A program made the position numbers and the translations under genes. From the IMG/VR virus record IMGVR_UViG_3300035698_007134, positions 1 to 56,135 of that record: a stretch of 56,135 nt of DNA. One strand, written 5' to 3'. This stretch comes from a virus. The notes under the pieces were generated by a model. It did no database searches. It saw nothing but the letters and a program-made list of their open reading frames with translations, and was not told where the DNA came from. This document shows, piece after piece, positions 6,533 to 43,136 of this stretch. Numbering within the stretch: position 1 is the stretch's first letter; every line of letters starts with the position of its first letter.

Positions 6533-8248
6533 ATGTTGAAACCGAGGACTGTGAAAAAGATCGGGACTAAAGCGGATTTTACTAAGGAAATTCTCGAAGC
6601 AGTTAGAATTATTGCTGAACCAGTAAAAGCAACCTTAGGACCCGATGGATGTCCTATTATTCTTGATAGAGGTAAATATTCTCCACTAATTACAAAAGAT
6701 GGTGTAACTGTTGCTAAGTCTATTTTTGTATCTGACGTGGTTAAGGATCTTATGATTAGGGCTATTAAGGAAGCGTCGGAGAAGACCAATGCAGAAGTGG
6801 GTGACGGTACTACAACGGCGATTGTGTTGGTTGAAGCACTTTTAAATGAAGGAATGAAATTTATTAAATCTGGGCTTATCACTCCGCAAGCCCTTGTTAG
6901 GGAGATAAAAGCTTGTATTCCTAGTATTAAGACGAATTTAACTAGTATGTGTAAAAAGGTTGTTAGTGAACAGGATATTAAATATGTAGCTAATATTTCT
7001 GCTAATAATGATCCAGAGATCGCTAGTGCTGTAGTGGAAGCTGTGATGAGGTCTGGTGCAGATGGTGTTACTTCTATTGAAGAAGGAACGAGTACGGATA
7101 TTAAGGTTTGTCCAGTCGATGGATTCCAAATAGGTAAGGGTTGGAGCACTCATAAAGAATACTCTATCAAGTTGATGCAGTCGGCTACACGCCAAGAGTT
7201 TTCTTATGCAACACCTGCGGTGCTTTGTTATAATGGTGATGTTACAGATGTGAGTGAATTTTCTGATTTCATTATAGCTTTTCATGAGATTAATGTTGGG
7301 GCGCAGGTGCCAAAAGCTGCTCTTAGTGCGCCAATTATTATTGTAGCCCATATGTTTAGTGGTGCAATTCGTCAGTTTATGGTTGATAATATGATTCAGA
7401 ATGGCATTCAGATTATGCTTGTTGAGACAGAACTTTGGGGTACTGAACACAGTCGTGTTTATCAAATTAATGATTTGGCTGAATATACTGGTGGAAAAGT
7501 TGTTACTCATGGTAATCTTAGGACGATTATTAGTAAGAAAGAAGATGGTACTCCATGTGTTGATGATTCTTACCTTGGATGTTGTGAGAAGGCCATTCAA
7601 ACTAAGGGTAATACAACATTCTATGGTGGTGAAAAGAACGAAGAGAAATTGCAGGAATATATTGAAGAAGTACGGGCCACCAAAGATAATGCAGAGCATG
7701 CTTGGGATATGGAGATTCATCAGAAACGAATCGCTCGTCTACTAGATGGCATTACTGTTATTGAATGTGGTGGTACTACCACTCTTGAAATTAAAGAACG
7801 TATGGATCGAGTTATTGATGCCGTGTCCGCAACACGGGCTGCACTTAAAGGTGGTATTGTTCCAGGTGGTGGTATCGCTTTATATGATTGTGCTCAGACA
7901 TTTGAAATTGGGACTAGTTGTGGTGAGAATGTTTTGGCTCGTGCTCTTCAAGCTCCATTACGTCAGATTATTAGTAATACGGGTAAGCCTCCCGATGGTA
8001 TTATTGAAAATATTAATAGTATAGATCCCTTGCTTGGTGGCGGTTATGTAGGCTATGATGCTTTGCTTCATAAAATTAGTGATGACATGTTTGGTGATGG
8101 TATCGTAGATCCATTAATGGTAGTGGAGATAGCGGTTATGAATGCATTGTCTATTGGTTGTGAATTGTTGCGTGGTGGCGGCTATGTGGTCATTAAGAGT
8201 GAGGCAGCAGATCCAGATGATGAGATGATGGGCAACCCTACTGAATAA
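6533..8248 (+). CDS. groEL: GroEL-like chaperonin (phage-encoded)
   Basis: 571 residues against about 548 for E. coli GroEL. The start has AAAGGAG upstream. The ATP-binding motif GDGTTTA is at about 90-96, ATLGPDG at about 33-39, and the equatorial motif GGIVPGGGIAL at about 439-449. The C-terminus (DPDDEMMGNPTE) lacks the GGM repeat typical of bacterial GroEL. Chaperonins of this kind fold viral or host proteins, often capsid subunits, in the cytoplasm; some large phages encode their own. No GroES-like gene was seen in the window, so it either uses host GroES or works alone. It is the first gene of the long rightward operon, so it is probably expressed early. Confidence 0.93.
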   Translation: MLKPRTVKKIGTKADFTKEILEAVRIIAEPVKATLGPDGCPIILDRGKYSPLITKDGVTVAKSIFVSDVVKDLMIRAIKEASEKTNAEVGDGTTTAIVLVEALLNEGMKFIKSGLITPQALVREIKACIPSIKTNLTSMCKKVVSEQDIKYVANISANNDPEIASAVVEAVMRSGADGVTSIEEGTSTDIKVCPVDGFQIGKGWSTHKEYSIKLMQSATRQEFSYATPAVLCYNGDVTDVSEFSDFIIAFHEINVGAQVPKAALSAPIIIVAHMFSGAIRQFMVDNMIQNGIQIMLVETELWGTEHSRVYQINDLAEYTGGKVVTHGNLRTIISKKEDGTPCVDDSYLGCCEKAIQTKGNTTFYGGEKNEEKLQEYIEEVRATKDNAEHAWDMEIHQKRIARLLDGITVIECGGTTTLEIKERMDRVIDAVSATRAALKGGIVPGGGIALYDCAQTFEIGTSCGENVLARALQAPLRQIISNTGKPPDGIIENINSIDPLLGGGYVGYDALLHKISDDMFGDGIVDPLMVVEIAVMNALSIGCELLRGGGYVVIKSEAADPDDEMMGNPTE

Positions 8249-9615: not shown

Positions 9616-10627
9616 AAAAGTAGCCAGATGGAGAGTAAAGGCTGCGACCAAGAAATTTGATTTATTCAATTTTTTAGAAACCAATGGGGTTGAATTTAAG
9701 ATCATGTCGAGTGGTGCATATTACTATTTAACTTGTTGGGAATGCGGTAAAAAGAAGCTTTATATACATAGTGATGAAGATGATGATTTTAGGGGGTATT
9801 ATAAATGTTGGGTATGTGGCAATAAGGGTGATATTTTTGATTTAATGGCTCAAGTGGAGATGATATCTAGGTCCCAAGCATTTGCTAGGATTATGGGTCA
9901 ATCGGTTCCTGTTGGTGATATTGAACAATGTGAAGATTTTCTTAAATTTAGGTTTAATCAGTGGGAGAATACAGTAGATAAGCCCGAACCAAAACGTTAT
10001 GACATGCCACTAAATATTAAACCTTTATTAAGTACTCCAGATAGTAAGTGTTATACCTACGCCAAGTGTCGTGGTATTACAGAGGAAATGATGAAAAAGT
10101 TTAATATTATGGGGTCTGATAATCTTAAACGTGTTGTCTTTCCCATAACATATAAAAAAGTGATGGTAGGCTGGCAGGGTCGTGCTATTCTTCCGCATAT
10201 AGAACCAAAAATTTTAAGTACGAAGGGCTTTCGTAGGGTTGAATATATGTATAATTATGATGCAGTTAAAAATGCAGCTTCTATCGTGCTTACTGAAGGT
10301 CCAATAGATGCTATAAAGGCCCACAAACATAATAGCATAGCTTTGTTTGGTAAGGCGTTGTCTCCGCAACATTTAGATTTATTAATGTCAATGAAACGTT
10401 TGAAACGTATATATATTGCTTTAGATCCTGATGCGATGTCGGTTGCATATAGTCTAGCTGCTCAGTTGTCTTCTACTTGGGAGATTTATATGATAAGATT
10501 TCCAGGTAATACCGATATGGGTGAATGTAATGAAGAAGAAGTTGATTATTATGTAGATATTTCTAAACCCTATAGCAATGCTAACGTCGAGGATTTTGGT
10601 GACATTCTAAACTTAGGAACATTATGA
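9596..10627 (+). CDS. DnaG-like primase with zinc ribbon and TOPRIM domain
   Basis: About 343 residues. The ATG pair at 9593/9596 follows AGGGG and overlaps the helicase gene by about 20 bases. A CHC2-type zinc ribbon (CWEC at about 46, CWVC at about 71) is followed by the catalytic TOPRIM core: LTEGPIDA at about 231 supplies the Glu and IALDPDA at about 274 the Asp pair. It makes RNA primers at the fork with the helicase. Its TGA stop overlaps the original polymerase start (ATGA at 10624). Confidence 0.9.
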   Translation: MTRWTPKKVARWRVKAATKKFDLFNFLETNGVEFKIMSSGAYYYLTCWECGKKKLYIHSDEDDDFRGYYKCWVCGNKGDIFDLMAQVEMISRSQAFARIMGQSVPVGDIEQCEDFLKFRFNQWENTVDKPEPKRYDMPLNIKPLLSTPDSKCYTYAKCRGITEEMMKKFNIMGSDNLKRVVFPITYKKVMVGWQGRAILPHIEPKILSTKGFRRVEYMYNYDAVKNAASIVLTEGPIDAIKAHKHNSIALFGKALSPQHLDLLMSMKRLKRIYIALDPDAMSVAYSLAAQLSSTWEIYMIRFPGNTDMGECNEEEVDYYVDISKPYSNANVEDFGDILNLGTL

Positions 10628-10662
10628 AATCATATGCAGCACTGCATTGTCATTCAATGTAA
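10624..10662 (+). pseudogene. Orphaned 5' end of the DNA polymerase gene
   Basis: A 12-codon ORF (MKSYAALHCHSM then TAA) begins in an ATGA overlap with the primase gene. It encodes the same PHP-domain opening (YAALHCHSM) that reappears at 11416-11442 in front of the polymerase. The two copies differ only at three third-codon positions in the shared stretch (TAT/TAC, CAT/CAC, TCA/TCC). This is the original polymerase start, cut off by insertion of the HNH endonuclease gene. Confidence 0.85.
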
Positions 10663-10700
10663 ATATTTATGAATGTTAATGAAAATGATAAGATGTGGGT

Positions 10701-11414
10701 ATGACACAAATATTACAAAAAGTTTGTTCAAAGTGTAGAAAATTAAAACCTTACAACAGTTTCAATGTTTGTAATAGGAATAAGGTAACTGGGTTACATT
10801 CTATTTGTAAACAATGTTATAAAGAGTATCGTGCCATGAAAACTAGGTATGACATTAATAATAAAATTGTAAGTAAGAAGTGTTCAAAATGTGGCATTTT
10901 ATTGCCTGCTTGTTTGTTTGGGAGGGACTCTAAAAATACAGACGGATTGGATCGTTGGTGCAAGAAATGCAAAAATGCTTCTACCAGAGAGTGGAGAAAG
11001 AACAATGTAAATAAAGATTCTGAATATAGTAGGAAATACAGGTTAACTGCTGCTGGGGTATATCAATCATTAAGATGCTCGGCCAGGAAGAGGGGGTGGT
11101 CTTATCCCGACAAAGAAGAATTTATACAGTGGTTTGATAACAGTGTTAAGGAGTGTCATTATTGTGGATTGCCACAAGAAAGTTTGACGTTTATGACTTA
11201 TATAATAGAGAAACATCGCTTTAGGTTAACAATAGATAGAAAAGACAATTTATTAGGGTATGATATAGATAATATTGTACTCTGTTGTCCGGCGTGCAAT
11301 AAAATAAAATGTGATGTATTAAATGAGTCTGAAATGCTTGACATAGGCAAAAGACATATAAAACCAAAATGGACAAAGATAATTGAAGAGAGAGGAGGTA
11401 ACCATGGGCGTTAA
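10701..11414 (+). CDS. HNH homing endonuclease inserted at the 5' end of the polymerase gene
   Basis: About 237 residues. Several CxxC pairs form zinc-ribbon-like DNA-binding modules (VCSKC, CKQC, KKCSKCG, CKKC), followed by an HNH nuclease domain: CHYCG, then TIDRKDN, GYDIDNIVLCC and CPACNKIK. The last motifs match the HNH endonucleases common in phage genomes. ATG 10701 is preferred over GTG 10695; neither has a strong ribosome site. The TAA stop overlaps the new polymerase start by 11 bases. The element carried a diverged copy of the polymerase 5' end, as expected for a homing gene moved from a relative. Confidence 0.88.
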   Translation: MTQILQKVCSKCRKLKPYNSFNVCNRNKVTGLHSICKQCYKEYRAMKTRYDINNKIVSKKCSKCGILLPACLFGRDSKNTDGLDRWCKKCKNASTREWRKNNVNKDSEYSRKYRLTAAGVYQSLRCSARKRGWSYPDKEEFIQWFDNSVKECHYCGLPQESLTFMTYIIEKHRFRLTIDRKDNLLGYDIDNIVLCCPACNKIKCDVLNESEMLDIGKRHIKPKWTKIIEERGGNHGR

Positions 11415-14400
11415 TTACGCAGCACTGCACTGTCATTCCATGTATTCACTTTGACGGTGTGGGTACTATATCTCAATGGGTAACCATGGCTAAGGAGAAG
11501 GGGCTATATGGGTTAGGTCTTACTGACCATGGCAATATGTCTGCGGCATTGGAATTGTATTTTAAGGGTAAATCTGAGGGGTTTCCAGTAGTGCTTGGTT
11601 CAGAGTTTTATGTTGTTGATGATTTTACTAAAAAAGAATATTACCATATGACTGTATGGTGTAAGAATGCTGTGGGATATCGTAATCTTTGTACTTTATC
11701 AACTATGTCGTATGGTACTCAAAAGGGCGATCCGCATTTCTATAAAAAGCCTCGCATTAATTATGATGAATTGATTGCTCATAAAGAGGGATTGATAGTT
11801 GGCAGTGGTTGTTATATTGGTGAAATTAATCATTGTGTGTGTCATGGCAAAATAGATCAAGCTAGTTATTTATTAACGAAGCTTACTAAGGCTTTTGGTG
11901 ATGATTTCTATCTTGAAATTATGCCTGCTATGGTTACTACTGATAAAAGAATGGGTATACTGGAGCCAGGTGATAATTTACAAGAGAAGATGAATGCTAA
12001 ATTATTGGATATTTCTAAAACGACAGGTATTAAATATATTTGTTCATCTGATGCTCATATGCCAGATAAGAGTCTAGAGATTGTACAAAAGATTAAGATG
12101 GCGAATTTTGCTAAGAGTAAAAAGGAACGTTGGGAGTTTGATTATATTTATTATCTTCATGATAATAAGGAGTTTACTAAGCAGTGGACTGAAGAATTTG
12201 GTCTATCAATGGAGGATTTTGAGGTTGGATGTGCTAATACTCGTGAGATAGTAGATAAATGTCAAGGTCTTAAATTGGAGTTTGAGGATAGATTCCCTGT
12301 TATTGATCATTCTCGTTATCCTACCTACAAAGAGGGTGCGACTGATCTTTCTTTGACCTTGTCGTTATGTCGTTATCATGGTAGATTATCTAATGATTCT
12401 ATTTATTTAGAGAGACTTGAACGAGAAATTGAAGTATTACATAATAATGGTAAATCATCATTTTTAAGTTATTTTTTGCTTTTAGAGGATGTGTGTAGAT
12501 ATTGCAAGAAAGTTGGAGCTATTAAGGGTCCCGCTCGTGGTTCGGCTGGTGGTAGTTTGCTTGCTTATTTATTATGTATTACTGATATTGATCCGATTAA
12601 GCATGATCTTTCATTTGAGCGATTTATTAATCTGACTCGTATTGAGAAGGGAACGTTACCAGATATTGATTTGGATTTTGGTAATCGTGATGTGGTTCTA
12701 GATTATTTGGGAGAGGTTTATGGTCGAGAGAAGGTGTCTAGTGTTGGTCTTATTCAAACGCTTAAGCCTAAGATGGCTGCTAAAGATGCATTTCGTATCT
12801 TGCGTCCGGATATGCCTACTGGACAAGTTGATTCGTTCGCGGCGGCCATTCCGTGGGCTGATTCTGAAACTGATATTTCAGAGAAGAAAGTTAAGGCCGC
12901 TATTAAGGAATCTTGTGATTTGTATCACTATCTTAAAGACAATAAGGATGTAGAGGCTGGTATTTTAAATTCAATTGGTCAGATGCGACATTTTGGTACG
13001 CATGCTGCTGCTGTGGTTATTAGTCCAGAAGATTTACGAAATTTTGTACCCTTAATGCGTAAGGCGTCAGATAATAAGTACTATACACAATATTCTAAAG
13101 ATTGGTGCGCTAAGGCGGGTCTAATTAAGTATGATATCTTAGGGCTAAATACATTGAATGTTATTGAAGAATGTATGATACTTATAAAGGAGCGTCATGG
13201 GTTAGTGTTTGATCCGTGGGCTGATTTACCTTTAGATGATAAGGCAACATTGGAGGCATTTAATGATTCGGATACTAGCACGATCTTCCAGTTCAATACG
13301 GACGCATTCAAAGATTTATTACGTATTGGTGTTGTTAGTGAATTTAATGACCTTGTCGTTATCAATACTCTTGGTCGTCCTGGGACTCTTGATATGGGGA
13401 TGCATCTTGAGTGGGTTGAGCGTCGTAAGGGTAATAAAAAGATTGAATACCCACATCAATCGCTTGCACCAGTACTAAAAGATACCTTAGGAATCATTCT
13501 CTATCAAGAGCAAGTGATGAAATCTTTGCAAGTGTTAGCTGACTTTACTGACGCAGAGGCAGATGATATTAGACGCGCCATTGGTAAAAAGAAGACTGAA
13601 GTATTGGAGCGTTATAAGCCTGTTTTTTTAGATAGATCTGTTAAGAAATGGGATGATCTTACTGATGATAAATCATTAGAGATATGGGGGCTAATGGAGG
13701 CGTTTGGTCGATATAGTTTTAATTTATCACATGCTCTTGCTTACTCACTTATTTCATATGCTCAGCAATATATGAAGATTCATTATCCAGTTGAGTATTG
13801 GTGTGCTGTGTTGCGCAATGAAGATGATGCTGATAAAAATCGCCTACTTTATAAAAGTATTAAACAATGGATAGCCCCCTATGACATTAATAAATCAAGT
13901 GATAGATTTCAGATTGTTGATGATATGGTTGTCCCTCCCATTAATTCTATTAAGTTCATCGGGCCAATAGTTTCTCAGACATTGGAGAAAATGCGTCCAA
14001 TTTCTTCTCTTAAGCAGTTTTTAGATGGTATGAATAATTCTAAAGGTAAGATGATTTTTAAAAAGCATGTGGTAATTAATATGATTTTGGGTGGTTTATT
14101 TGATGATGTGGAACCAGATATGACGCCCATTGAGATGATTAAAGAATATTATTTACAGGTGGCTGGTGCAAAAATTAAGCGAGATGGGAAACCAAATAAA
14201 ATTCTATTGGAATTTGAACAACGCCATAACACTAAGACCCAAGAAGATTTGAAGCGTGAGCGTATGATGCTTTTACCATTTAATGATATAGATCTAATGG
14301 GGTTATTACCTAGTGATAAACGAGATAGATTTAGTCAATATCCGGATGTTTTAAAATATGCAGATGGGTCACAGGTATGTTTAATAGGGGTAGTTTTAGA

Positions 14401-14617
14401 TATATATTCTATTAAAGATAAGCGTGGGCGTCCTATGTTTTTTGTTAATTTGATGAATGCGGGAGAGACTATTAACTTAACGGTGTGGCATGAAAATGCT
14501 ATAACTTATCGTGGGATGTTTCAGCGTGGTAAAATTGTTGCATTAATAGGTAATATTAACAGGTATAGGGGTAAGTTTTCCGTTATACTAAAGAAAGCAC
14601 AGGAGGTTTCAGGATGA
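11404..14617 (+). CDS. dnaE: C-family (DnaE/Pol III alpha-like) DNA polymerase, +1 frameshift needed
   Basis: About 1,068 residues if the ribosome shifts +1 at CTT TGA C (11449-11455), skipping T11452. The start is ATG 11404 with AGGAGG upstream. PHP domain: LHCHS lies before the shift; LTDHGNM, GSEF and SSDAHM lie after it. The palm holds GPARGSAGGS (about 374) and the catalytic-Asp motif PDIDLDF (about 418). A C-terminal OB fold (about 984-1065) binds DNA. Without the shift, translation could begin at GTG 11459, but this loses the first His pair of the PHP metal site. It is the main replicase, in an operon with helicase and primase. A C-family enzyme replaces the A- or B-family polymerases of most phages. 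Confidence 0.9.
11449..11455 (+). promoter_or_regulatory. Putative +1 frameshift site (CTT TGA C)
   Basis: The heptamer CTTTGAC, in frame as CTT TGA C, is identical to the slippery core of the bacterial prfB (RF2) +1 frameshift. Slippage of the Leu tRNA from CUU to UUU would place GAC next and restore the D-G of the PHP motif. The internal AGGGGG stimulator of prfB is not seen just upstream; the nearest purine-rich site is the start-codon AGGAGG about 50 bases away. Confidence 0.55.
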
Positions 14618-30268: not shown

Positions 30269-31381
30269 TTATTCGAGATCGATAATGTCATCATTATCGG
30301 GGCCAGTGCCAATGAGGACTACTGGTAATCCAGTTTTTCTTTCAATATGATGGATAAATGCTTGTGTCTGATGGGTAAGTCCTGACCAATTTTTGGCCTT
30401 ATAACTACCCCAGTCTATATATTGTACGAAATTTATCATTAATTTAGTGGCTGATGATATTCTCACTGAGTCCATGAGACCTTTCCAAGAGAATGTAAAG
30501 ACCCGTCGTAGTCTTTTTGTGACTGTGGTTAACTGTTGGGAATATAATTTGTCGATTTCTTCTTGTGGCATCTGGGCATTTTCTCCCACTTCTTGCCATG
30601 TTAATTCTTTCTGATCTGGATAACCAGGGCCAGAGTTGCCGATTTCATTGCCATTCTCTATAATATTACCAACTCTAATAGGAGTAGAATGAATATTTAA
30701 ATAGATGTCACCGATTTTATTTAAGGGTGGTGCCATGTCAGAAATAGCTTGTAATGAATTAGTAGATCGAGATGTACAATATGGATATTCAATACCATGA
30801 TTAATGTCTAATCCAATTCCTTGTGATACTTCATGAAATGCAGTCTTACCTTCTTTTAGATGTTCATGTAATTGGTATACCATATTTGGATTAATATGTG
30901 AGGCCAATTCGTCATAATCTCGTGCTAGACGAAGATTTGGTTTGCGAAGGATTTTATCTGATAAGAATGTGCCGCTTCCTTGGCAAGTTGATGCGATAGA
31001 CTTGGGTCCATTAAGATCAGTTTCTTCTCTGAGTTTATGTGCTTTGGTAACTACACCCGCTCTGGGGTGGATATGTATTGGTGTAGTAATATTACATTGA
31101 TCTAATTCTTTTGCGAATTGTTCTAAGGTGAAGATGGCTGTTGGTCCAATTTGAATTATTGGGCTATAGTTTTTATGTAATTTACTCATATAAGCGCCAG
31201 ATGGTAGGATTTTGGCGATAAAAATATCGTTTCCTTGTCTATAAGTATGTCCGGCGTTGGGTGTATTGGTTGAACAGAGAATCTCTGGGCGATATTTTTC
31301 AGTAAGATAACAATACATTTTTGCTTTGCCTGAACTTCCTGCGAATGCATCTACTAACATGTTGAATTTGCCACGTTCCAT
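30269..31381 (-). CDS. purZ: PurZ-like 2-aminoadenylosuccinate synthetase (PurA family)
   Basis: 370 residues, shorter than PurA (about 430). The PurA loop GDEGKGK appears as GSSGKAK (15-21): Ser replaces the catalytic Asp, the hallmark reported for PurZ. Other PurZ-style signatures follow: PNAGHTY (41-47), LPSG (59-62), YPYCTSR (199-205), TPIRVGN (233-239), YPDQKELTW (254-262) and TTVTKRLRRVFTFS (285-298). PurZ joins dGMP and aspartate; host PurB then gives 2-amino-dAMP (dZMP), which ends up replacing dA. AAAGGAG precedes the start. A MazZ-like gene at 36.1 kb and a dNMP kinase at 14.6 kb could complete the route. Confidence 0.87.
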   Translation of the reverse strand: MERGKFNMLVDAFAGSSGKAKMYCYLTEKYRPEILCSTNTPNAGHTYRQGNDIFIAKILPSGAYMSKLHKNYSPIIQIGPTAIFTLEQFAKELDQCNITTPIHIHPRAGVVTKAHKLREETDLNGPKSIASTCQGSGTFLSDKILRKPNLRLARDYDELASHINPNMVYQLHEHLKEGKTAFHEVSQGIGLDINHGIEYPYCTSRSTNSLQAISDMAPPLNKIGDIYLNIHSTPIRVGNIIENGNEIGNSGPGYPDQKELTWQEVGENAQMPQEEIDKLYSQQLTTVTKRLRRVFTFSWKGLMDSVRISSATKLMINFVQYIDWGSYKAKNWSGLTHQTQAFIHHIERKTGLPVVLIGTGPDNDDIIDLE

Positions 31382-34224: not shown

Positions 34225-34582
34225 AGACGTTTATCATGTAGATAAACCATGGGGATGGGAAAAAATCTGGGCTAAGACTCCGTTTTATGTTGGTAAGATG
34301 ATTTATATTAGGAAGGGTTGTCGTTTGTCATTTCAATATCATGAACGTAAGACAGAAACTATTTATATTGTTGAAGGACAAATGACATTGGTAATAGGAG
34401 ATGAGAAAGAGCAAATAGAGATGTCTTTTTGTGATTCATACCATATCCCCTCTGGTCTTAAACATCGTTTTTGGGCACCTGATATGGATTGTTTGGTAAT
34501 GGAAGTCTCCACATCCCAATTAGATGACGTGCAGAGACTTGAAGATGATTTTGATAGAATCAATTCGGACAAAAATCCTTAA
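34214..34582 (+). CDS. Cupin, mannose-6-phosphate isomerase type II-like
   Basis: 122 residues from ATG 34214 with GGAGG nine bases upstream. Typical opening HVDKPWGWEKIWA, then cupin motif 1 (LSFQYHERKTETIYIVEG, His and Glu metal ligands) and motif 2 (IPSGLKHRF). This matches the C-terminal isomerase domain of GMP-type enzymes, which interconverts fructose-6-P and mannose-6-P. Coupled to the guanylyltransferase gene. Its 3' end overlaps the opposing sigma factor gene by 23 bases. Confidence 0.78.
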   Translation: MKNKDVYHVDKPWGWEKIWAKTPFYVGKMIYIRKGCRLSFQYHERKTETIYIVEGQMTLVIGDEKEQIEMSFCDSYHIPSGLKHRFWAPDMDCLVMEVSTSQLDDVQRLEDDFDRINSDKNP

Positions 34583-35786
34583 AAGCCGGATGATTAAGAA
34601 TTTTCTTAATACATTTCTTATTTTGTTGAGTGATCCTTTCAGTTGAAACTTTCATTTTTTCAGCTATTAAACGGCATGGTAAGCCATCTGGTGGACTGTC
34701 TGATATATATTCATTACCAGAAACTTGTGCGCCTTGAGCGGGATCTATAGTGTACACTGGGAAGATTCCATATCGTAATCTTAGTACCTTTTCTTGACGA
34801 GGAGTAAGACATGTAATTGCTTCTTGTAATTTGTTTTTAAATGAGTCCATATCCATCTTGTTAATTATGTCCTCTTCCACACAAGCTTGTTTGTCAGCTA
34901 GTTCGTCTAAATATGAGCTTGGTTGGCCGTCATCGTCATTATGAAATGGGTTAGAATCATTAATAATATATGTGACTCTTTGTGATGCTTCAATGACTCT
35001 ACAGATCTTGGCTTCTGACCAATCTAATGCCTTTCCCAACTCTTCGGGAGTGGGTTCCTTTCCTGCTGCGGTTGTTAATTTGACAATGGTTTTATTAATT
35101 TTGTTCATATTATTGTTGACGTGAACAGGTACTCTGACGGTTTTACTACTGTTGGCTACCGCACGTTGTGCACATAATTTAATCCAGTATATAGCCATAG
35201 TGGTGAATTTGGTTTTTCTATGATAATCGTATTTATCTACCGCTAGTAATAGACCAATGTTGCCTTCTTGTATTAAGTCATTAAACTCGACGCCTTTATC
35301 TTTATATCTTTTAGTAGCATGAATAACTAAACGTAGGTTAGCTTCAACCATCTGGTTACGAGTATATAGATATTCATTAGCAATCATCTTTTCATTAACG
35401 TCGTCTAATAATTCCAATATTACGGAGCTTTTTAATTTCACTTTATATAGTATGTCATATCGTTCGTCTAACGAGTTGGTTTCTTTTAATGAGTATATAT
35501 TATCTCTTAGTACATTTTTAGTTGCTTTCATCGATACTGATGAGATACCTTCTACGTTCGGTAAATCGCAATCGCAGATCATTGTGCCAAGGGGTTTACC
35601 TGATTTAATTAATCGGTCATAAAAATTACAGATCGATGTGATCCCCTTTTTCGTAGCACAAAGAATTTTAAGGGCTTTGTCTTTTGCGTGCTCAAAGCCC
35701 TTAACTTTCTTATTTATTTCTGTTTGTGGATATACTGGTATTGAATTAAAATATGTAGATGGCATGCGATTATTAACAGCAGTCAT
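34560..35786 (-). CDS. Sigma-70-family RNA polymerase sigma factor
   Basis: 408 residues. Region 2 is clear: NLRLVIHATKRYKDKG, FNDLIQEGNIGLLLAVDKYD, KFTTMAIYWIK. Region 3 (AGKEPTPEELGKALDW) and region 4 (LTPRQEKVLRLRYGI, then LIAEKMKVSTERITQQ) follow. Region 4 carries an insertion of about 25 residues before the recognition helix, and the helix has Thr where sigma-70 has Arg584 and Arg588. The -10-reading residues in region 2.4 also differ (WIKLCAQ against WIRQAIT). It probably redirects host RNA polymerase to phage promoters. It ends a minus-strand transcript with the MazZ-like gene. Confidence 0.88.
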   Translation of the reverse strand: MTAVNNRMPSTYFNSIPVYPQTEINKKVKGFEHAKDKALKILCATKKGITSICNFYDRLIKSGKPLGTMICDCDLPNVEGISSVSMKATKNVLRDNIYSLKETNSLDERYDILYKVKLKSSVILELLDDVNEKMIANEYLYTRNQMVEANLRLVIHATKRYKDKGVEFNDLIQEGNIGLLLAVDKYDYHRKTKFTTMAIYWIKLCAQRAVANSSKTVRVPVHVNNNMNKINKTIVKLTTAAGKEPTPEELGKALDWSEAKICRVIEASQRVTYIINDSNPFHNDDDGQPSSYLDELADKQACVEEDIINKMDMDSFKNKLQEAITCLTPRQEKVLRLRYGIFPVYTIDPAQGAQVSGNEYISDSPPDGLPCRLIAEKMKVSTERITQQNKKCIKKILNHPAFKDFCPN

Positions 35787-40860: not shown

Positions 40861-42066
40861 CTATGCGTTTATTACTTTTCCAAATGGTGGTTTCGCATGG
40901 TCGTGATTTTTATTAGTATTGACCCAAACTACTTTGTAGGGTGGTTTCTTATCAGGAAAATCTGTATACATATCAGTAAAGAAGATTAATAGGGCTGGAT
41001 TATATTTATTCTCTTCTATCCATTTAAAAACTGGTTTGGAGCTTGTACCACCTCTACCTTTGAGTTCTATTAATGATTTCATTTTACTCATGTCCATCAC
41101 TCCCGTTACCGCCGCGTCACATTGTAGGAGTTTTCCTTCATATCCTTGTTTTTTAATCCAGTTGATAATACTATATGCATCTTCTAATTCTTTCTGTGAC
41201 ATTGAGCCTGAAGTATCTACAGCTATTATAAATTTGGGTCCATACATACATCGGCTTCCTGCATAATTGGGGAATCTTCTGTTTCTTCGCCTCCAATAAG
41301 AAGACTCTTGTACGCTTGATGAAATTGATTTACCTACTACGCGTCTAAGTATTTTAACTAAATCACGTTTTCTTTTCCATTTGGCTCTAATTTTTTCTAT
41401 AATCGCTTCTGGTACGTTTCCTTTTTCTTTGGCTTGTTCAACTGCCATACTTATTCGTTCTCTCCAGATCTCTTCTATTGCTTGGCTATTGTTGTTCTCA
41501 CCCCATGAATCATGATCATCGATGGGTTTCATACTCTTTGATGTATTACTTTTTCCTTTTTCTTGATCTTGTTTTCCTTTTTGATTTTGTTCTCCTTCTT
41601 TTTGTTCTTCTCCTTGTTCAGATTCTCCCCCTGTTTGTTGGAGCATTTTGTTGGATTTGGATTGTAGATGTTTATAATAAATCTCTTTACTTTCACTAAT
41701 AGGTAATTTAAATAGCTTATAAGTTAATACGTTATCTGCAAGACTCGCTGGTGGTTTAGTAAAAGGGTCTTGATTAATCTCAATGTCTGCTGCCATGTTG
41801 TCTAGTGTGCGGTCTTTTAATCTACAAAATACGTGGGCAAGAATTACATGCCATAATTCATGTTTGACTATAAACATGCATGCTTCGTCGTCTAGACTTT
41901 CAATCCACTCTTTATTATATCCTATATTAATATTACTATGATCCATTGTTACACCTGCTGTGGGCTTCTTTGGTCTCTCTTGAAATTTCACATAGTCCGT
42001 AAACTCTTGGAGTAACGGGTCTGTGAATACCAGCTTAACCAAACAATTTTGTAATCTGGTACGCAT
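40861..42066 (-). CDS. VWA-domain protein with N-terminal metallopeptidase domain (DUF2201-like)
   Basis: 401 residues, AAGGAGG upstream. The N-terminal domain has a zincin motif HELWHVILAH (69-78) with DNMAADIEIN after it. A Gln/Glu/Lys-rich linker follows (about 140-180). The C-terminal VWA domain carries the metal-site motif DTSGSMS (284-290), GRGGTS and FTDMYTD. This matches the DUF2201 metallopeptidase/VWA family. Such proteins pair with MoxR AAA ATPases, and one is encoded directly upstream, so they probably act as a remodelling complex. The target is unknown. Confidence 0.78.
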   Translation of the reverse strand: MRTRLQNCLVKLVFTDPLLQEFTDYVKFQERPKKPTAGVTMDHSNINIGYNKEWIESLDDEACMFIVKHELWHVILAHVFCRLKDRTLDNMAADIEINQDPFTKPPASLADNVLTYKLFKLPISESKEIYYKHLQSKSNKMLQQTGGESEQGEEQKEGEQNQKGKQDQEKGKSNTSKSMKPIDDHDSWGENNNSQAIEEIWRERISMAVEQAKEKGNVPEAIIEKIRAKWKRKRDLVKILRRVVGKSISSSVQESSYWRRRNRRFPNYAGSRCMYGPKFIIAVDTSGSMSQKELEDAYSIINWIKKQGYEGKLLQCDAAVTGVMDMSKMKSLIELKGRGGTSSKPVFKWIEENKYNPALLIFFTDMYTDFPDKKPPYKVVWVNTNKNHDHAKPPFGKVINA

Positions 42067-42097
42067 ATTACCTCCTTTGTTTTTTTCTCCCCCCCTT

Positions 42098-42125
42098 AGC
42101 TGATCACTGTTGGGGCTGAATGGGG
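42098..42125 (-). repeat. Intergenic repeat copy 2
   Basis: Minus strand reads CCCCATTCAGCCCCAACAG then TGATCAGCT. It abuts the stop codon of the MoxR-like gene and precedes the VWA gene. Confidence 0.75.
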
Positions 42126-43136
42126 TTAATTGCTGATAAGATCGATGATATCTTTCATCATTTCAGCACACTTATCATTGGCTTTATTAAGACGTTTGTT
42201 GATGTTAGGCATGTATCTCATGATATGACCAATCTGTGCCTTGCCGAATCTTAACATTGTTTCTGTAAAATTATTAGAATTTTTGGGTTTATTATTACCT
42301 ACCCAATTATTAATACGAAGGAGTAAGACTCGTTTAGCGAGTGGGTCCATACTTTCTACTTGGTGCTGGTCTGGTGCAGATAGAAATAATGAGGCTGTAG
42401 GGATTGTCTTTAAGATTGACCTGTTCTTCCATGTTGCTGCGCCTTGTGGACCAACACAAGAATTAATGAGTTCTAAACCAATATCTTCACTCACATTGTC
42501 AACCACAGGTAAGATCATTCTTAATTGATTAAGTCCTCGTGGTGTGAAATCTTTAATGGGTAATGTACAATCAGTAGAGCATTTAACATTGTGATCTCCA
42601 AGAATTGCAAGCTCTGCGATTCTGTCGTCGTATCCGCGTGATGAAAAGTAATTTGCCACTTCTGGGACTTCATTATTTACTTTAATAAAGAGACAACGAT
42701 CAATAACTGCTTTGTCCATCTCGGTCACACTATAATCATCTGTATCGGGGTTCATGGCCCCAATAATTGAGCAGTGTGATAGATCATAATTCGCCAATTT
42801 TTTCTGATCTAAAATCTGCATAATAGAGTCCATGAGTACTGGCTTACATCTATTAACTTCATCTAAGAAAAGTACGCCCCCATCTTCAAGACGTTTAAAC
42901 ATCTCTACCTCTGTAAACGTTGTTACTCCATCAATAATTTCTGGTAAACCTAGTAAATCTCCTGGGCTATCCAACGAGCCAACACGGATGATCTCTAGAT
43001 ATTTTTCGTTGTCATGACATGAATCTGTTACTGTTTGTGTCTTGCCTACTCCTGCTCCGCCTACCATAATGAGTGGTGGTAAATCAGATGTGTTAATCCA
43101 TAAATCTGTTAACATTCTTGCTTCGCTTGCTTTCAT
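42126..43136 (-). CDS. MoxR-like AAA ATPase
   Basis: 336 residues, AAGGAGG upstream. Walker A GGAGVGKT (26-33), Walker B VLFLDEVNR (about 89-97), the sensor-1-like segment IIGAMNPD (about 125-132), and DRCLFIKV. This is the MoxR/RavA layout. It lies upstream of the VWA/metallopeptidase gene in the same direction, the standard MoxR-VWA pairing that inserts metals or remodels protein complexes. Its role in a phage is not established. Confidence 0.82.
   Translation of the reverse strand: MKASEARMLTDLWINTSDLPPLIMVGGAGVGKTQTVTDSCHDNEKYLEIIRVGSLDSPGDLLGLPEIIDGVTTFTEVEMFKRLEDGGVLFLDEVNRCKPVLMDSIMQILDQKKLANYDLSHCSIIGAMNPDTDDYSVTEMDKAVIDRCLFIKVNNEVPEVANYFSSRGYDDRIAELAILGDHNVKCSTDCTLPIKDFTPRGLNQLRMILPVVDNVSEDIGLELINSCVGPQGAATWKNRSILKTIPTASLFLSAPDQHQVESMDPLAKRVLLLRINNWVGNNKPKNSNNFTETMLRFGKAQIGHIMRYMPNINKRLNKANDKCAEMMKDIIDLISN

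Follow-up and report, generated by a model that had tools for sequence, protein, structure and literature searches.

At prfB frameshift sites, a hyper-conserved Shine-Dalgarno (SD)-like element (AGGGGG) lies three nucleotides before CTTT, and altering any prfB element reduces shifting (available text of PMC12421855). Every CUU-stop +1 entry in RECODE is prfB according to the available text of PMC10885494, and in the literature searched, of which parts of the texts were accessible, no polymerase with a CUU-UGA shift was found. Going by the accessible part of PMC10885494, a polymerase with a confirmed CUU-UGA shift would be without precedent. Here, we describe a candidate site of this kind, the heptamer CTTTGAC, at the start of a DnaE-type DNA polymerase gene in a viral DNA of 56,135 nucleotides (IMG/VR record IMGVR_UViG_3300035698_007134; this whole stretch is referred to as the window). 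Based on sequence comparisons, we consider it about an even call that the heptamer marks an indel scar at the insertion of an HNH homing-type endonuclease gene at the start of the polymerase gene, which corrective slippage may rescue.

The original prediction, that the polymerase start with its HxH is in one frame and the remainder in +1, joined at CTT TGA C (11449-11455), was confirmed. The elements of the locus are listed below by position, strand and description (ORF, open reading frame).

10624..10662, +, first copy of the polymerase start, upstream of the HNH gene; MKSYAALHCHSM followed by TAA, with an ATG that overlaps the stop of the primase gene (ATGA)
10633..10661, +, copy 1 of a 29-nucleotide direct repeat, sharing 90% identity with copy 2
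10702..11414, +, HNH / endonuclease VII-like gene; the ORF may begin at GTG 10695 and its last codons overlap the polymerase ATG
11393..11399, +, strong SD AGGAGGT of the second polymerase start, -13.0 kcal/mol with the anti-SD
11404..11454, +, ORF1, second polymerase start with the PHP HxH; ATG 11404 reads MGVNYAALHCHSMYSL-UGA
11416..11444, +, copy 2 of the 29-nucleotide direct repeat, within the second polymerase start
11449..11455, +, CTT TGA C at the frame break, where +1 slippage may occur
11453..14617, +, remainder of the DnaE-type polymerase, encoded in +1, with PHP, polymerase and OB domains
11459..11461, +, GTG, earliest potential start codon of the polymerase frame, without SD (-2.4 kcal/mol)
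11486..11488, +, ATG, next in-frame start, with a weak SD (-3.7 kcal/mol); its use would lose the HxH and the first PHP Asp

Translation from ATG 11404 gives 16 residues before the UGA stop at 11452-11454. The +1 frame is open up to 14617 (1,052 amino acids counted from GTG 11459), and family matches to the PHP, polymerase and OB domains identify its product as a DnaE-type polymerase alpha. Reading +1 at CTT yields ...HSMYSL-DGVGT... across the join. Decoding of the UGA as an amino acid was rejected, since frame 0 soon stops past it and 14 of the 57 window ORFs examined end in TGA.

The nearest polymerase relative found was that of L001, an IMG/VR contig of 39,045 bases, which is 56% identical and in frame. 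L001 carries no HNH gene between its primase and polymerase genes (the empty site), and comparison with such a relative, one of the checks proposed originally, returned an in-frame gene. The L001 polymerase is uninterrupted and reads HSMFSS-DGVGT, and the +1-shifted window product aligned with it gap-free at the join. The leader GGAGGTAACCATGG of the second polymerase start was common to the window and L001, and the frame-0 N-terminus was homologous to that of L001 (17-residue end, score 67 versus a best of 31 in 100 shuffles). The shifted product had been described as one residue shorter than usual, which holds relative to solved cellular alpha subunits, whose loop at the join is one residue longer, but not relative to L001, which is equally short (HSMFSS-DG). 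Over its first 100 residues, the shifted product was more similar to L001 than elsewhere (identity 0.69-0.73 versus 0.51-0.62 further on), suggesting that the PHP domain was constrained and the full-length protein needed until recently at least.

Apart from L001, the polymerase relatives returned by the contig scans were L002, which is truncated, and two distant rumen loci. The L002 contig lacks the polymerase N-terminus, so the break site was compared in L001 only. Neither viral_contigs (protein and DNA-pattern scans) nor genome_contigs (one scan) yielded another phage polymerase carrying the break, and the window had no near DNA match in phages or plasmids. We also looked for frame breaks at unmatched protein ends of at least nine residues, using 76 query ORFs (antisense ORFs included) against two related phage records and accepting matches with E up to 1e-15. 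The polymerase break was the sole one among 39 such ends, indicating that the window sequence is not generally frame-damaged. As a separate observation, the DnaE-like polymerase of Bacillus phage Jayan (L016:1426-4833) is split in its annotation into two genes, separated by a short ORF.

The HNH/endonuclease VII-like ORF at 10695-11414 comprises 239 codons. Its protein matched 14 PHROG families, several of them endonucleases (endonuclease VII, HNH), with an E of 1.2e-31 for phrog_1035; the Pfam HNH model gave an E of 0.02 on the same protein, below the cut-off. Relatives of this protein amounted to one partial sequence in viral_contigs (L091) and six phage records, and in only one of the three records opened, Escherichia phage KarlSchell_Bas89, is the HNH relative located within a polymerase gene, whose annotation joins two pieces. 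The window ORF is flanked by the two repeat copies, each coding YAALHCHSM of the polymerase start, a duplication that the original prediction did not mention. Three of the nine codons differ between the copies, all of them synonymously, and the longest exact stretch in common is 11 bases. This synonymous divergence suggests that the copies come from two phage lineages rather than from a fresh tandem copy. The frame break lies eight nucleotides past copy 2. A two-T deletion left by the HNH insertion had been proposed as an alternative cause; the suspected involvement of the HNH insertion is supported, but the size is not established, since the window looks one base longer when compared to L001 and two bases shorter when compared to the longer-loop polymerases. 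One base may therefore have been gained or two lost, and either copy may be the native one.

CTTTGAC occurs five times in the window, counting both strands; among the 57 ORFs examined, none ends in CTT TGA and one ends in CTT TAA. A DNA-pattern scan of viral_contigs for the PHP motif closely followed by CTTTGACGG returned 74 contigs. Specifically, 72 were polymerases or PHP proteins reading NNC TTT GAC in frame (S-x-F-D-G), and two (L017 and L064) were unrelated genes matched by chance. Since the PHP motif often spells (C)TTTGAC, the heptamer alone is no proof of an RF2 signal. In addition, single-base insertions and two-base deletions were simulated in the first 12 codons of 53 distinct in-frame fragments. 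CTT TGA became the first stop met in 4,183 out of 6,996 insertions and 1,061 out of 1,749 deletions, and CTT TGA C exactly at the break was rarer (53 and 147, respectively). When the same simulation was applied to the L001 polymerase, CTT TGA C appeared at the break in 2 out of 12,804 insertions and 3 out of 3,201 two-base deletions. The heptamer would be striking for an L001-like ancestor and unsurprising for an ancestor spelling Phe-Asp. The break probably falls on CTT TGA C because the PHP codons at this place commonly spell (C)TTTGAC. This constitutes a trap, as a motif common in polymerases contains the RF2 heptamer and frame errors there will often resemble an RF2 site.

According to the explanation that we favour, an HNH homing-type endonuclease gene would have inserted at the start of the polymerase gene, so that the opening codons of the polymerase now flank it, and the usable start would have been thrown out of frame by a small indel within or beside the downstream recombination junction, presumably in this order. 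Endonuclease insertions splitting phage genes have precedents, one of them associated with a polymerase gene (available text of PMC2988022). The position of the break, eight nucleotides beyond copy 2, is what leads us to read it as a scar of the insertion event, and this position, together with its being the only one among the 39 ends, makes an unrelated random indel unlikely. Most ribosomes initiating at ATG 11404, with its strong SD, would terminate after 16 residues, and the few that slip +1 on CUU-U would yield full-length polymerase in which the PHP motif is intact. The starts inside the polymerase frame are poor. Provided that the sequence is the true genome, an enzyme with a complete PHP domain would be reached most directly through this slip. 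Corrective, low-level +1 frameshifting appears to fit better than a designed or tuned RF2 switch. Several points weigh against this explanation. The sequence may be a minority or misassembled one, the comparison at the break site rests on one relative, and L001 itself does not carry TTT GAC here, so that the motif argument for the heptamer leans on more distant polymerases. Moreover, slippage without an SD stimulator may be too infrequent to supply a replicative enzyme. Should the break be real, production of a replicative polymerase would hinge on ribosomes slipping beside a homing endonuclease. To our knowledge, T4 gene 60 is the one natural precedent in which a selfish endonuclease and translational recoding occur together, and this would be the second.

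The break could instead be absent from the living phage, as an assembly error or a minority defective variant, with most genomes carrying an uninterrupted polymerase. We regard this as a real possibility that falls clearly short of even. A single sequence carries the break, the only relative covering the N-terminus is in frame, one indel in a short T run would suffice, and the downstream gene is intact with no signs of decay. However, no further break was present at the 39 ends tested, the T run has only three bases, the repeats share too few exact bases to mislead the usual assembler, and the location beside the insertion would be a coincidence. Less probable still, and in our view unlikely, is that the polymerase starts downstream, at GTG 11459 or ATG 11486, without the HxH strand of its PHP domain. 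The GTG begins four nucleotides past the UGA, which suits termination-reinitiation, and GGTAACCATGG is common to ATG 11486 and the true start. Nevertheless, the SDs at both codons are weak when compared to that of ATG 11404, L001 lacks an ATG corresponding to ATG 11486, and the remainder of the PHP domain is well conserved, which would be odd if its first ligands had been lost. It is likewise quite improbable that a single mobile cassette comprises the HNH gene, the duplicated start of the polymerase and the frame break at CUU-UGA-C. In such a cassette, the out-of-frame, synonymously different start could shield the resident gene from its own endonuclease and +1 recoding would keep the polymerase made. 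If true, this cassette would be a phage counterpart of the bypass at T4 mobA/gene 60, and a polymerase gene would for the first time be seen to carry an RF2-type slip site.

A purpose-built switch of the prfB type, through which RF2 activity in the infected cell would set the polymerase dose as originally suggested, seems very unlikely. The locus resembles prfB in its CUU slippery codon, in the UGA followed by C, in a short ORF1 read from a strong start, in a functional protein encoded in +1 and in a shifted product that matches an uninterrupted homologue (L001) without gaps. In contrast, no SD-like stimulator was present in the 16 nucleotides before CTT (best anti-SD duplex 0.9 kcal/mol), despite the hyper-conservation of this element in prfB, and the product is not RF2. 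RNA folds around the site, upstream and downstream, did not surpass those of shuffled sequences (z of 0.08, -1.15 and 0.48). With no second case in viral_contigs either and a heptamer inherent in the motif, the proposed dependence on RF2 is left without independent support. As the break lacks one of the features that define the prfB signal among those tested, we do not class it as a member. Finally, RNA splicing that excises the HNH element and restores the frame is hardly credible, even though the HNH relative of KarlSchell_Bas89 lies inside a gene annotated as joined and, by inspection, a junction directly after T 10660 that resumes at T 11445 would keep the frame (...HSM-F-H-F-DG). No Rfam match was obtained at the gathering score in the window, nor at E up to 1 in 10500-11700; about 40 nucleotides upstream and 30 downstream of the ORF are too little for a ribozyme core, and the second copy codes for protein and has an SD of its own. 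A group I or II intron was rejected on the absent Rfam ribozyme match and the lack of room.

Other genes of the window were also recorded. A PurA/PurZ-like synthetase (30269-31381, -) matched PHROG 1211 (2-aminooxy adenylosuccinate synthetase); NCBIfam PurZ gave an E of 9e-44, below the cut-off, and the adenylosuccinate synthetase model scored better, also below the cut-off. This gene is present in both related phages (74.6% and 61% identical) and could indicate modified-adenine DNA. The window further encodes a GroEL-type chaperonin (6533-8248, +) and a sigma-70-family factor (34560-35786, -) with matches to regions 2, 3 and 4, by which the phage may redirect the host RNA polymerase. An AAA ATPase is paired with a DUF2201 metallopeptidase/VWA-like protein (40861-43136, -), a pair that we take to resemble MoxR-VWA pairs. 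The terminase large subunit of a related phage (L013:10858-14037) contains an in-frame intein with a LAGLIDADG domain, and the window copy has none.

Among known systems with mobile endonucleases, the atp6/cox2 genes with an endonuclease and alternative C-termini are similar in that a homologous fragment carried by the mobile element substitutes for the interrupted gene end (available texts of PMC7315562 and PMC4019555). The window differs in being of phage origin, in showing no intron, and in having a fragment of only a dozen codons that is out of frame. The feature of an N-terminal duplication of the host gene is present, as a second, coding copy of the polymerase start lies across from the endonuclease gene. 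The locus also resembles the free-standing HNH homing endonucleases of T4-like phages, which lie beside or inside a critical replication gene, over active-site codons. Similarly, T4 mobA and gene 39-60 combine an endonuclease in an essential replication gene with an adjoining recoding problem (available texts of PMC5009743 and PMC2988022). T4 solves this problem with a 50-nucleotide translational bypass, whereas the locus described here would require a one-step +1 slip and presents a duplicated gene start.
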